A DNA stretch of 64,000 nucleotides from Ochrobactrum sp. RH2CCR150 (GTDB taxonomy: Bacteria > Pseudomonadota > Alphaproteobacteria > Rhizobiales > Rhizobiaceae). Positions 1 through 5,142 of the stretch are shown here, in pieces. The position numbers were made by a program, and so were the translations under genes. Under the pieces are notes generated by a model. It saw only the letters and a program-made list of their open reading frames with translations, had not been told where the DNA came from and did no database searches. Numbering within the stretch: the stretch's first letter is position 1; every line of letters starts with the position of its first letter. The stretch spans positions 186,001 through 250,000 of the forward strand of contig JACGXE010000004.1 in assembly GCA_014138095.1 (NCBI GenBank), given 5' to 3'.

Positions 1-114
1 TTTGCCCACCTTTGCGCCAAGAACCACGGCAATAATGAAAATGACGATGGGGAGCAGGACCGTCGCTCCCAACGTATCGATGGCAGATTTCAGGCCGCTT
101 AGAAATGCGTCCAT
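1..114 (-). CDS. PTS sugar transporter subunit IIC, galactitol family (5' end only)
   Basis: Only the first 38 codons are in the window; the gene runs off the left edge. The start is the ATG at 114, preceded by a strong GGAGGAG ribosome site a few bases upstream. The peptide starts with a short amphipathic segment and then a hydrophobic stretch (ATVLLPIVIFIIAVVLGAKV), which matches the start of galactitol-type (GatC/SgaT-like) PTS membrane components. IIC proteins form the sugar channel and work with IIA and IIB subunits to import and phosphorylate a sugar or polyol. The IIA and IIB genes would be expected further left. It is divergent from the DRL operon and shares a 297-bp regulatory region with it, so both may serve one substrate. 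The family call rests on a short peptide. Confidence 0.6.
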   Translation of the reverse strand, partial: MDAFLSGLKSAIDTLGATVLLPIVIFIIAVVLGAKVGK

Positions 115-234
115 AGTTTTCTCCTCCCCCCAGTCATTCCCAACGAATGCCAGGCCGTTCGAACGCTTGTATCAAGTTCCGCACCGCATGCCCCCACAAT
201 GATTTTGTTGTGTTGCATTTTGAAACACCAGGCA

Positions 235-353
235 GAACATTTGTTTTTTATATCAGACCAATGTTTGTTCACAAGCGCTAAAGCACGGTAAGGAATAACA
301 GGTCCGACGAGTGTGTTGAATGTACACTCGTATTGACTTGGAAACAAATGTTC
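235..353. promoter_or_regulatory. Divergent control region with inverted 12-bp copies
   Basis: GAACATTTGTTT at 235-246 recurs as its exact reverse complement AAACAAATGTTC at 342-353. A related AATGTTTGTTCAC lies at 260-272. The copies sit between the divergent PTS gene and the DRL operon. The arrangement fits a DeoR/SorC-type sugar repressor that binds several sites, but no regulator gene for this locus is in view. Confidence 0.45.
307..331. promoter_or_regulatory. Perfect inverted repeat ACGAGTGT-N9-ACACTCGT
   Basis: Two 8-bp arms, 307-314 and 324-331, form a perfect dyad inside the divergent promoter region. It is about 80 bp upstream of the DRL start. It could be an operator; nothing else supports a specific regulator. 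Confidence 0.35.
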
Positions 354-411
354 ATTATCGGGTATAGGAAGAGGGGCGCGAAGGCGCCTGGAGGAACATC
401 AGGAGGAAAAG

Positions 412-2777: not shown

Positions 2778-2779
2778 TC

Positions 2780-3778
2780 ATGGACACCACAATCCGCGAG
2801 TTGAGCTATTCGCAAGCCATTCAGGAAGCCATGGCGATTGCCATGGAGCGCGACGACCGCGTTTTCCTGATGGGCGAGGACATCGGCGTCTATGGCGGCG
2901 CGTTTCAGGTAACCGGCGATCTCGTGCATCGCTTCGGTGAAGACCGCGTCATGGACACGCCTATTTCCGAACTGGGCGGCGCTGGCGTCGCCGTTGGCGC
3001 AGCGCTGACCGGCATGCGCCCGATCTTCGAATTCCAGTTCTCCGACTTTGCCGCGCTGGCCATGGAACAGATCGTCAATCAGGCCGCAAAAATCCGCTAC
3101 ATGCTGGGTGGCGCGGTTTCCGTGCCGCTGGTCATGCGCTTTCCTGCCGGTTCCGGCACGGGTGCCGCTGCACAGCATAGCCAGAGCCTCGAAGCCTGGC
3201 TTGGCCATGTGCCGGGTCTGAAAGTCTTGCAGCCATCCACGCCGCATGACGTCAAGGGCATGCTGCTGGCAGCCGTTGAAGATCCAGATCCGGTCATGAT
3301 CTTCGAGCACAAGTTGCTCTACAAGATGAAGGGCCCGGTTCCTGAAGGCTACTATACTGTGCCGATCGGCAAGGCCGAAGTGGTGCGCGAAGGCCGCGAT
3401 CTAACCATCGTCGCGACCGCCATCATGGTGCACAAGGCGCTGGATGCGGCAGCAGAACTGACCAAGGAAGGTATCGACGTCGAAGTCATCGATCTGCGCA
3501 CCGTGCGCCCGATTGACCGCGACACGATCATCAAGAGCGTCAAGAAAACCTCGAAGCTGCTTTGCGTCTATGAAGCCGTGAAAACGCTCGGCATCGGTGC
3601 AGAAATCTCGGCCATCGTGGCTGAAAGCGATGCTTTCGATTATCTCGACGCCCCCATCGTGCGTCTTGGCGGCGCCGAAACACCAATCCCGTACAACCCG
3701 GATCTGGAACGCGCGACCGTGCCGCAGGTGCCTGACATCCTCAAGAGCGCCCGCGACCTTGCCAAGGGAGTGCGCTGA
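2780..3778 (+). CDS. acoB: Acetoin dehydrogenase-type E1 component, beta subunit
   Basis: This 332-residue protein is the transketolase-like beta subunit partner of the preceding E1alpha. It opens with the characteristic block REL-SYSQAIQEAMAIAMERDDRVFLMGEDIGVYGGAF and has the conserved FEFQFSDFAALAMEQIVNQAAKIRYM segment. The C-terminal transketolase domain contains DLRTVRPIDRDTI. It starts 2 bp after the alpha stop codon and ends 2 bp before the E2 start, so the three are almost certainly co-translated as one complex. Substrate specificity cannot be read from the sequence. Confidence 0.82.
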   Translation: MDTTIRELSYSQAIQEAMAIAMERDDRVFLMGEDIGVYGGAFQVTGDLVHRFGEDRVMDTPISELGGAGVAVGAALTGMRPIFEFQFSDFAALAMEQIVNQAAKIRYMLGGAVSVPLVMRFPAGSGTGAAAQHSQSLEAWLGHVPGLKVLQPSTPHDVKGMLLAAVEDPDPVMIFEHKLLYKMKGPVPEGYYTVPIGKAEVVREGRDLTIVATAIMVHKALDAAAELTKEGIDVEVIDLRTVRPIDRDTIIKSVKKTSKLLCVYEAVKTLGIGAEISAIVAESDAFDYLDAPIVRLGGAETPIPYNPDLERATVPQVPDILKSARDLAKGVR

Positions 3779-3780
3779 CC

Positions 3781-5142
3781 ATGGCAGTGGAAGTCATCCT
3801 GCCGAAAGTCGACATGGATATGGAGACCGGCCAGATTTCGCGCTGGTACGCCAAGGATGGCGATACCGTCACGAAGGGCCAGCTCCTGTTCGAGATCGAA
3901 ACGGACAAGGCGGCCATGGAAGTGGACGCCCCGGCCAGCGGCATTCTCGGTGATGTGGCCGCCGCCGAAGGCACTGTCGTGCCAGTCGGTCAGGCCGTTG
4001 CCTGGATTTACGAAGAAGGCGAAGAGCGCAAAGCACCACCATCCGTTGGGCTCTCCGCCGATGCGCAGCCTGCTCTCTCGCAGAGCGCGCCTGTGCCGGT
4101 TCGGGAGGCTGCACCCCAACCTGTCGAACCGGTCGTTTCTGCCTCCCAAGGCGCTACCGCTCAGGAAACAGCCGTGCGTGCAACGCCGCTTGCACGCCGG
4201 CTGGCCCGCGAGGCCGGCATTGATCTGGACGCGATTGCGGGTTCCGGCCCCAAGGGACGCGTGCAGAAAAAGGACGTCGAGGCGAAGATAGGCTCTGCCG
4301 CACCGGCACAGCCTTCGGCCCCTGTATCGGCTCCGTTGTCCAAACCCGTTGCGACTTTCTCCGCAGGTTCCGCAACACCGCTTAATGCCGTCTGGTTGCG
4401 TGAGGGTGAAGCTGGAAAACTGCCGATTGTCCTGATCCATGGCTTCGCCGCCGACCTCAATTCGTGGCGCGGTCTGCTTGCAGGGGCGACGCTCGGCCAT
4501 CCGGTTCTGGCGCTTGACCTTCCCGGTCATGGGGCGTCCACGCGCAGCGTGCCGGACAGCATTGATGCGATTGCTGAAGCTGTTGAAGCCACACTTGCCG
4601 CCTTTGGCGTGAATGCCTGCCTGCTTGGCGGCCATTCCTTCGGTGGCGGCGTTGCCGCAACTGTTGCCGCACGCAGCATCGTCGATGTGCGCTCGCTGGT
4701 GCTGATTTCGTCCGCCGGTCTCGGCCCCGAAATCAATGGCGCCTTCACCAAGGGTCTGATCGCCGCCAAAAGCGAGGCGAGCATTACGCCATGGCTGAAG
4801 CTCCTTGTCAGCGACGAAAGCCTGCTTACGCGGCCTTTCATCAATGCCACGGTTGCTCAAGCCGCAGATACTGAACTGCGTGCCGCGCAAAGCGCCATTG
4901 CAGAACGGTTCTTCACTGACAGCACCCAGACCTTCAACGTCCGGTCGGCTATCGCCGAGTTGCCGATCCCTGTGCGGCTCATCTTCGGTGCGGAAGATCG
5001 GGTCATTCCCGTCAGCCATGCCCATGGCCTGCCCGGAAAAGTTGGGGTGCATATCTTCCAGCGTTGCGGACATATGCCGCAAATCGAGGAGCGTACCGAA
5101 GTGTTGCGCATTCTCGCTGAATGCGCCCGCGCCGTCGCGTGA
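3781..5142 (+). CDS. acoC: E2 component: lipoyl domain fused to alpha/beta hydrolase (AcoC type)
   Basis: This 453-residue protein has an N-terminal biotinyl/lipoyl domain with the lipoyl lysine at about residue 43 (ETDKAAM). An Ala/Pro-rich linker follows, then a peripheral-subunit-binding domain near residues 136-172. The C-terminus is an alpha/beta hydrolase domain with nucleophile Ser286 in GGHSFGGG and a late His in RCGHMPQ. Ordinary pyruvate dehydrogenase E2 proteins carry a chloramphenicol-acetyltransferase-like domain instead. The hydrolase version is known from acetoin dehydrogenase AcoC. It would accept the acyl group from E1 and hand it to CoA. No E3 gene follows; a terminator does, so E3 must come from elsewhere. 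Confidence 0.85.
   Translation: MAVEVILPKVDMDMETGQISRWYAKDGDTVTKGQLLFEIETDKAAMEVDAPASGILGDVAAAEGTVVPVGQAVAWIYEEGEERKAPPSVGLSADAQPALSQSAPVPVREAAPQPVEPVVSASQGATAQETAVRATPLARRLAREAGIDLDAIAGSGPKGRVQKKDVEAKIGSAAPAQPSAPVSAPLSKPVATFSAGSATPLNAVWLREGEAGKLPIVLIHGFAADLNSWRGLLAGATLGHPVLALDLPGHGASTRSVPDSIDAIAEAVEATLAAFGVNACLLGGHSFGGGVAATVAARSIVDVRSLVLISSAGLGPEINGAFTKGLIAAKSEASITPWLKLLVSDESLLTRPFINATVAQAADTELRAAQSAIAERFFTDSTQTFNVRSAIAELPIPVRLIFGAEDRVIPVSHAHGLPGKVGVHIFQRCGHMPQIEERTEVLRILAECARAVA

Follow-up and report, generated by a model that had tools for sequence, protein, structure and literature searches.

We analyzed a stretch of 64,000 nucleotides from Ochrobactrum sp. RH2CCR150 (contig JACGXE010000004.1, positions 186,001 to 250,000), here called the window, and focused on an operon at its left edge. 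The first gene encodes a paralog of DRL (DXR-II), the unusual second version of the isoprenoid enzyme that interconverts 1-deoxy-D-xylulose 5-phosphate (DXP) and 2-C-methyl-D-erythritol 4-phosphate (MEP). It is followed on the same strand by genes for the E1 alpha and E1 beta subunits of a thiamine diphosphate (TPP)-dependent dehydrogenase and for its E2 component, with intergenic gaps of 11, 2, and 2 bases. A gene for the IIC subunit of a galactitol-family (Gat) phosphotransferase system (PTS), gatC, is divergent from the operon. This gene set had been proposed in an initial annotation made from the sequence alone, and profile matches confirmed it (Table 1). The evidence presented below points to catabolism of a branched polyol.

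Table 1. Features of the DRL operon and its promoter region, in window coordinates
Feature	Position	Strand	Basis or remark
gatC start, galactitol-family PTS IIC, first 38 codons	1..114	-	remainder, IIA, and IIB upstream of the window
12-mer operator-like motif GAACATTTGTTT, gatC side	235..246	+	perfect inverted repeat with 342-353
TTGACT, possible -35 box directly ahead of the second motif copy	333..338	+	read by eye
12-mer operator-like motif AAACAAATGTTC, upstream of the DRL operon	342..353	+	inverted repeat and shuffle test
DRL (DXR-II) paralog, predicted NAD+-dependent MEP/DXP oxidoisomerase	412..1731	+	DRL_cat PF21135, 228.5 bits, 5.6e-68
Glu55 of DRL, end of Rossmann beta-2	574-576	+	position read from the GxGxxG motif
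TPP-dependent dehydrogenase E1 alpha	1743..2777	+	E1_dh, 309.6 bits, 2.2e-92
TPP-dependent dehydrogenase E1 beta	2780..3778	+	Transket_pyr 5.9e-46, Transketolase_C 2e-42
E2, AcoC type (lipoyl, E3-binding, and alpha/beta-hydrolase domains)	3781..5142	+	family profile matches

Genes and a shared motif at the locus

The surroundings were examined in an extended locus, L005, whose coordinates are those of the window plus 12000. The complete gatC product has 469 residues (L005:10705-12114; EIIC-GAT, 292.7 bits), and behind gatC lie a IIA gene (PTS_EIIA_2) and a IIB gene, the latter read from the sequence, both beyond the window. Beyond these three genes, and again outside the window, come genes for a SorC-type regulator and an HPr-EI fusion and then a PTS of the glucitol (Gut) type, about 6.5-9.5 kb upstream of the operon. 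The glucitol PTS comprises a gutM-like gene and two II-GUT genes, with a IIA match at ~5.4 kb of L005. When a subset of the open reading frames neighboring gatCAB was scanned, the matches were to DRL, E1/E2, SorC-type, EI-HPr, II-GUT, and VirJ proteins.

Two copies of a 12-mer form a perfect inverted repeat between gatC and DRL. The exact 12-mer occurs three times in 18 kb and in none of 200 shuffles. The third copy (L005:2936-2947) is found ~65 bases ahead of the likely gutM start, and the DRL and glucitol-PTS promoters have in common the layout TTGAC-spacer-AAACAAATGTTC. With up to one mismatch and within 250 bp upstream, the motif precedes 21 of 95 DRLs linked to E1, 22 of 31 gutM genes, and 2 of 80 other DRLs, counts that span both locus sets described below, with some loci entered twice; the same scan gave 55 matches in 3.08 Mb overall. 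The gutM genes of the source genome and of L132 are missing from the hits, though the motif is present, because their reference reading frames start too early and overlap it. In a comparison of 12 loci, Ochrobactrum-group Brucella, Phyllobacterium, and Nitratireductor have the motif at the DRL operon; B. haematophila, Pseudochrobactrum, one Phyllobacterium, Nitratireductor, and Pseudohoeflea have it at the gut operon. The motif ties the glucitol PTS to the DRL operon, and we infer that the SorC-type protein binds it. A longer operator pattern was also tried as a regulon marker; genome-wide it matched only the DRL promoter itself, plus one match in the reversed control, and so delimits no regulon.

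Conserved DRL-E1 linkage and exchangeable import modules

To measure linkage, 397 genomes of the order were surveyed. DRL was detected at E<=1e-100 in 78 genomes, at 95 loci, and the surroundings of all 95 were compared. At 28 of the 95 loci, here called E1-linked, DRL has an E1 alpha gene (>60% identity) in its vicinity, and E1 beta accompanies it in 27. DRL stands immediately before E1 alpha, on the same strand and with a gap of <300 bp, in 26 of these 28 loci, which come from several families (the exceptions are L073 and L114). The association of DRL with E1 alpha exceeds chance. A second set of named loci, overlapping the first (e.g., L046/L183 and L049/L210), comprises the best 80 of at least 582 confirmed relatives of the E1-linked DRL alignment; both E1 genes are present in 65 of the 80, a linkage rate that is biased by this selection. 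Of the named genomes in this set, the nearest to the source is Brucella haematophila (Ochrobactrum group), in which DRL is 100% identical to the window copy, the gene order is the same, and E2 is 93% identical.

An import or kinase module is found near 24 of the 28 E1-linked loci: a Gut PTS at 11, Gut and Gat PTSs together at 2, a PfkB kinase with an ABC importer at 10, and PfkB alone at 1 (PfkB and ABC reference genes were assigned by Pfam). Phosphorylating import, which the initial annotation had postulated, agrees with the PTS or sugar kinase close to most of these operons. A PTS hands over a phosphorylated substrate, and an ABC importer plus a kinase achieves the same in two steps. Import and phosphorylation are exchanged as one unit, and this interchange around a constant DRL-E1-E2 core argues that the core acts on a phosphorylated compound. 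On plasmids pRM41A of Sinorhizobium meliloti Rm41 and pAtCFBP7129b of Agrobacterium tumefaciens, the ABC importer, kinase, sugar-binding regulator, DRL, E1 alpha, E1 beta, E2, lpdA, and lipA form a single stretch. The initial annotation had suggested a survey for linkage of DRL with AcoABC genes and a galactitol PTS. The linkage to E1 is kept across families and on one Bacilli plasmid; the galactitol PTS turned out to be a more local partner, and the glucitol PTS is the widespread one.

The PTS genes resemble those of the Gut/Srl and Gat pathways, with GutM, II-GUT subunits, IIA, EI-HPr, and gatABC-type genes all present. Unlike in those pathways, no sorbitol- or galactitol-phosphate dehydrogenase is annotated beside the PTS in the Listeria, Ligilactobacillus, and Pseudoroseomonas stretches (the source genome was not searched for one). 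DRL may take the place of the polyol-phosphate dehydrogenase in these clusters.

The Bacilli plasmid belongs to Priestia aryabhattai and carries E1 alpha-E1 beta-E2-E3, two sugar-binding regulators, an MFS permease, DRL, and an FGGY kinase. Its E1 beta is 60-63% identical to those of six representative alphaproteobacterial operons. The same six are 56-58% identical to a Clostridioides difficile copy, 50-52% to a Thermus copy neighboring a gene named acoA, 46-50% to a Phaeobacter copy, 44-47% to a pyruvate dehydrogenase copy, and 44-48% to an Enterococcus faecalis copy that sits beside butanediol dehydrogenase.

These comparisons bear on the simplest reading of the E1/E2 genes, that of a plain acetoin-degradation operon that has acquired a DRL gene. 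The window E2 does match the NCBIfam acetoin dehydrogenase E2 model (NF011457; 433.6 bits, cut-off 307), and two annotated E2s of other operons are so named. Beyond that name, however, no butanediol or acetoin gene is annotated in the annotated DRL-operon stretches (which include S. meliloti Rm41, A. tumefaciens, Priestia, and Pseudoroseomonas), the operon E1 betas are distant from the E. faecalis copy with its butanediol dehydrogenase, DRL directly precedes E1 alpha in several families, and acetoin requires no phosphorylating import. We give this explanation hardly any credence. The system is similar to AcoABC in having E1 alpha, E1 beta, and a hydrolase-type E2, and the reaction proposed here would likewise cleave a CH3-CO-CHOH-R compound. 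It differs in its link to DRL and phosphorylating import, and in that the operon E1 betas are nearer the DRL-linked Priestia copy than the acetoin-type copies compared.

The relative of the Priestia E1 beta in C. difficile (65% identity) belongs to a cluster at 41.4-57 kb of NZ_CP149674.1 (L217/L223). There, a sugar-binding regulator, E1 alpha, E1 beta, E2, and E3 are joined by a sigma-54-type regulator, a galactitol-type PTS, a class II aldolase, and a lipoate ligase, immediately ahead of ispD-ispF; no DRL is annotated in the stretch.

Other Firmicutes-type clusters contain DRL and a PTS. The order in Listeria innocua is sugar-binding (SorC-type) regulator-DRL-gutM-Gut IIC-IIB-IIA; in Ligilactobacillus salivarius it is DRL-Gut PTS-gutM-regulator-fsa-tkt; and in Enterococcus raffinosus DRL is accompanied by a Gut PTS according to sequence matches. 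No E1/E2 gene was annotated or matched within 9-10 kb on either side of DRL in these three. They seem to retain the import and DRL steps and to split the product in another way. The L. salivarius plasmids (L213 and L214) have a gene of the transaldolase/FSA family and a transketolase in place of E1/E2, perhaps an alternative break of the same ketose phosphate. Within the order, a class II aldolase adjoins DRL in L095 and L096 and lies ~5 kb away in L092, and FGGY-kinase matches occur at all three. A less similar pair of E1 genes (about 45% identity) is present in L095 as well, together with an isolated lipoyl domain. On two Deinococcus plasmids (L216 and L226), the gene for a DRL-like protein comes after rfbF, lhgO, an SDR gene, and rfbC in a cluster of polysaccharide type, and sugar-nucleotide chemistry may thus be another role of the wider family.

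Such variety raises the question of the substrate. The operon could act on another branched or deoxy polyol, such as 2-methylthreitol, apiitol, or a longer 1-deoxy sugar alcohol, with the same oxidative rearrangement by DRL and cleavage of the resulting acyloin by E1/E2. Membership in a PTS or kinase family does not by itself specify the substrate; the presence of two different PTSs beside one operon in Pseudoroseomonas, the source genome (Gut and Gat in both), and some others suggests two related substrates; and next to related DRLs the place of E1/E2 is taken by class II aldolases, FSA, or transketolase. This alternative is taken up again below with the substrate-binding residues of DRL.

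Cofactor signature, paralogs, and descent of DRL

The window DRL aligns with the Brucella abortus enzyme (3UPL/3UPY) across residues 1-435 without a gap (730.7 bits to 3UPL) and keeps its substrate-site residues. It differs in being a second paralog, accompanied by PTS and E1/E2 genes where the B. abortus gene stands alone, and in ending beta-2 with Glu where the B. abortus enzyme has Ala. An acidic residue at this site is generally a sign of an NAD(H) enzyme, and a different residue accompanied by arginines is the sign of an NADP(H) enzyme. Asp or Glu is present in 28 of 28 E1-linked DRLs (including L114, whose E1 alpha lies 7.7 kb away and which was assigned to this group by hand) and in 22 of the 67 others. 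The remaining 45 DRLs, all E1-less, mostly have Thr-Arg-Arg (27/45) or similar. The DRLs of Listeria, Ligilactobacillus, Enterococcus, and Priestia are likewise acidic. Per genome, only acidic DRLs are found in 9 of 11 genomes with a classical DXR, and a non-acidic DRL in 43 of 67 genomes lacking one; Fisher tests on these counts, as on those of loci, ignore relatedness. Oxidation suits an NAD+ enzyme and reduction an NADPH enzyme. From this signature, the operon DRL is predicted to use NAD+. The shared motif and the NAD-type residue, neither of which had been predicted in the initial annotation, also fit catabolism.

By the terms of the initial annotation, its proposal would fail if the window copy were the only DXR of the organism and constitutively expressed. 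No classical DXR was found (0 PF08436 matches, in a search that was positive in 9 of 14 control genomes), and the source genome contains two DRL_cat genes. The second DRL (C12:10597-11910) is nearer to 3UPL than the window copy is (887 versus 731 bits), and the two proteins are 76% identical. It is flanked by MaoC- and HAD-type genes on one side and by a Clp-protease-like gene and then pntBA on the other. The window copy is therefore a paralog and not the sole DXR-type enzyme of the cell, which argues against a housekeeping role in MEP synthesis. Similarly, two DRLs are present in 8 of 8 Mesorhizobium genomes, one E1-linked and the other not. An E1-linked DRL coexists with a classical DXR in six genomes (G023, G116, G134, G172, G248, and G300); in three of these (G023, G116, and G300) the operon gene is the only DRL_cat gene, so it is not needed there for isoprenoids. 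DXS is a separate gene in 7 of 7 genomes, and E1 is therefore not the DXP synthase.

Passages of the 2013 paper on the DXR-II family (PMC3847144) report that 11 DXR-II proteins are functional, complementing a DXR-defective mutant, and that Ochrobactrum anthropi ATCC 49188 and Mesorhizobium loti MAFF303099 have extra functional paralogs. One M. loti paralog is probably of the operon type, given the pairing seen in all eight Mesorhizobium genomes, and one member of each of the O. anthropi and M. loti pairs would be the orthologue of the window DRL.

Complementation of this kind is what would be expected if the operon were an isoprenoid back-up, with DRL as a second MEP synthase and E1/E2 as a co-transcribed, ordinary pyruvate dehydrogenase-like enzyme, and NCBIfam does rate E1 as pyruvate dehydrogenase-like. 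The motif held in common with PTS operons, the import or kinase modules at 24/28 loci, the NAD-type residue in 28/28, the six genomes that retain a classical DXR, and the occurrence on plasmids all speak against it, and we regard a back-up function as very improbable.

Almost as improbable, in our estimate, is salvage, in which PTS-imported methylerythritol would feed MEP to isoprenoid synthesis while DRL and E1/E2 merely drain the surplus. MEP is also the substrate of IspD, and the related C. difficile cluster with its galactitol-type PTS adjoins ispD-ispF. That stretch has no annotated DRL, however, and its ispDF genes run on into tRNA-ligase genes; no isp gene is annotated in the annotated DRL-operon stretches listed above, unannotated loci not having been searched for isp. 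Passages of PMC3847144 further describe a functional DXR-II in Finegoldia, though no other enzyme of the MEP pathway and none of the mevalonate (MVA) pathway was found there.

The identity of the substrate can be addressed through DRL itself. Residues assigned in PMC3847144 to substrate binding (Lys191, Lys193, and Thr229) and to the dimer (Glu174, Phe178, Arg320, and Tyr322), whose numbering can be transferred owing to the gap-free 3UPL alignment, do not vary among the 16 operon DRLs that were aligned. Two DXR-less genomes that possess IspG (G336 and G264) have the operon gene as their only DRL_cat gene, so an operon-type DRL can presumably make MEP. With the functional paralogs of O. anthropi and M. 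loti (per the passages of PMC3847144 cited), these points speak against a polyol other than methylerythritol; we consider such a substrate unlikely, although it is the alternative we take most seriously.

A DRL tree was built from the 95 loci plus 8 chosen rows, with quick-search support values and with long branches flagged. The second DRL of the source genome and those of two small genomes of the same family, which we take to be Bartonella-like, nest in a clade of 24 rows (97% SH-aLRT). Nineteen rows of this clade are E1-linked, and three (L139, L141, and L199) are chosen additions. Two Phyllobacterium loci (L141 and L142) have a complete DRL-E1 alpha-E1 beta-E2 set between a MaoC-type gene and pntBA, the very site at which the source genome has its second DRL without E1/E2, which suggests that E1/E2 were lost from a catabolic operon. 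The acidic label changes 9 times on the tree, 8 of them forced by well-supported branches, and the E1 label 10 times, 7 of them forced. Methylerythritol is released by plants and bacteria, and 2-methyltetrols derive from isoprene. DXR-II might have originated outside isoprenoid synthesis, as an NAD+-dependent catabolic enzyme that degrades methylerythritol. It would have been recruited on several occasions in place of classical DXR, and on each of them the beta-2 residue would have changed from acidic to NADP type. In this scenario, Brucella and Bartonella owe their essential MEP synthases to remnants of such an operon, and the operons provide a bacterial sink for methylerythritol and isoprene-derived 2-methyltetrols. 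To this history we give not quite even odds.

One row of the clade, L199, comes from a contig labeled Bacillus subtilis SK6B4 and is a Rhizobiales-type MaoC-HAD-DRL-pntBA locus; the assembly is apparently mislabeled or contaminated.

A candidate route from methylerythritol to acetyl-CoA

We propose, with a probability of roughly 60%, that the operon serves the catabolism of a branched polyol, most likely 2-C-methyl-D-erythritol. The PTS, of the glucitol type and here of the galactitol type too, would import the polyol and deliver it in phosphorylated form as MEP, a role that would fall to an ABC importer and PfkB kinase in other genera and to a permease and FGGY kinase on one plasmid. DRL with NAD+ would then oxidize and rearrange MEP to DXP, the isoprenoid step in reverse. 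DXP has the same CH3-CO-CHOH head as acetoin. E1 with TPP would cleave it between C2 and C3 (the CH3-CO/CHOH bond), as acetoin dehydrogenase does acetoin, to yield D-glyceraldehyde 3-phosphate and an acetyl group, which the lipoyl domain of E2 would carry to CoA to form acetyl-CoA, E3 regenerating the lipoate. The SorC-type regulator and the common operator would place the DRL and PTS operons under joint control. The gene content, the linkage, the exchange of import modules, the motif, the acidic residue, and the second DRL were observed here, and MEP formation by DRL paralogs has been published; the use of NAD+, the direction of the reactions, the exact substrate, and the E1 reaction are inferred. 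Much of this pathway had been outlined in the initial annotation, and it is now partly supported: the linkage, the second DRL, and the import or kinase modules agree with it, and the PTS partner is chiefly of the glucitol type. Compared with erythritol catabolism (ery) of rhizobia and Brucella, the route would share a phosphorylated polyol with a C4 backbone; it would differ in its branched C5 substrate and in its predicted products, acetyl-CoA and glyceraldehyde 3-phosphate.

For the cleavage step there is a precedent. Passages of PMC3424233 report that mutations in E. coli aceE, which encodes the E1 of pyruvate dehydrogenase, let DXS-deficient cells make DXP in vivo. The C2-C3 bond of DXP is therefore within reach of E1 enzymes, with the difference that the E. 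coli case involves a mutant enzyme of another E1 architecture working in the synthetic direction.

Several observations weigh against the proposed pathway. Family models of E1 favor pyruvate dehydrogenase and give no pointer to acetoin: the top NCBIfam model for E1 alpha is a pyruvate dehydrogenase equivalog, which it misses narrowly (392.2 versus a cut-off of 393.85), and E1 beta exceeds a pyruvate dehydrogenase subfamily cut-off (401 versus 321). A DXS-like phosphate pocket was sought in E1 beta and rejected. R420 and R478 of E. coli DXS, which we take to bind the substrate phosphate (Arg in 6 and 7 of 8 DXS rows), have no counterpart in 27 of 27 operon copies, which counts against a simple DXS-like site; in alpha2beta2 enzymes, E1 alpha supplies part of the pocket. 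The window E2 has a hydrolase domain, whereas two operon E2s elsewhere have a true acyltransferase (2-oxoacid_dh) domain. The motif, at one mismatch, is absent upstream of 74 of the 95 DRLs linked to E1 in the combined sets, and 4 of the 28 E1-linked loci have no visible import or kinase module. Two Mesorhizobium loci (L066 and L071) have a galactitol PTS beside a non-acidic, E1-less DRL. Some DRLs of a sub-branch in the order are accompanied by FGGY kinases and class II aldolases instead of E1/E2, and substrates may therefore differ within the family. Finally, 24 of the 67 DXR-less genomes have acidic-type DRLs only. The acidic residue is therefore no proof of a purely catabolic role, and in those 24 genomes MEP is presumably made by acidic DRLs. 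A strict division into acidic, catabolic and NADP-type, biosynthetic enzymes is ruled out by these genomes and by the 2 of 11 DXR-carrying genomes that have a non-acidic DRL.

The PTS IIC of L066 and L071 is ~90% identical to that of the window and is divergent from DRL; in L066, the genes next after DRL encode an Rv0623-like regulator and a PIN-domain protein, a toxin-antitoxin-like pair.

Among the matches listed in a search of the open-access PMC literature, none described catabolism of methylerythritol or DXP, or a DXR-II gene in a catabolic operon. A word search of the 2013 family paper (PMC3847144) did not find "catabol" and found "operon" once, in the title of a reference. The explanations given for the patchy occurrence of DXR-II in passages of that paper are gene loss, gene dosage, and fosmidomycin tolerance, and passages of a 2026 paper (PMC13001223) still see no defining pattern except over-representation in certain pathogens. 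A catabolic role would account for DXR-II beside classical DXR, without the MEP pathway, and on plasmids, and the cluster could thereby explain the scattered distribution of this enzyme across bacteria. It predicts growth on methylerythritol, a preference for NAD+, and cleavage of DXP by the TPP-dependent dehydrogenase. If the proposal is true, an intermediate central to isoprenoid synthesis would gain a new fate.

Neighboring genes in the window

Downstream of the operon, positions 5181-9253 carry genes for an FhuD-like binding protein and a TonB-dependent receptor (both on the - strand) and for a regulator of the AraC family (+), which together probably serve siderophore uptake. A LacI-type regulator, xylulokinase, and xylose isomerase at 9840-13754 (+) make up an ordinary xylose operon, which is adjoined by a gene for an EptA/EptB-type phosphoethanolamine transferase (13801-15501, -).

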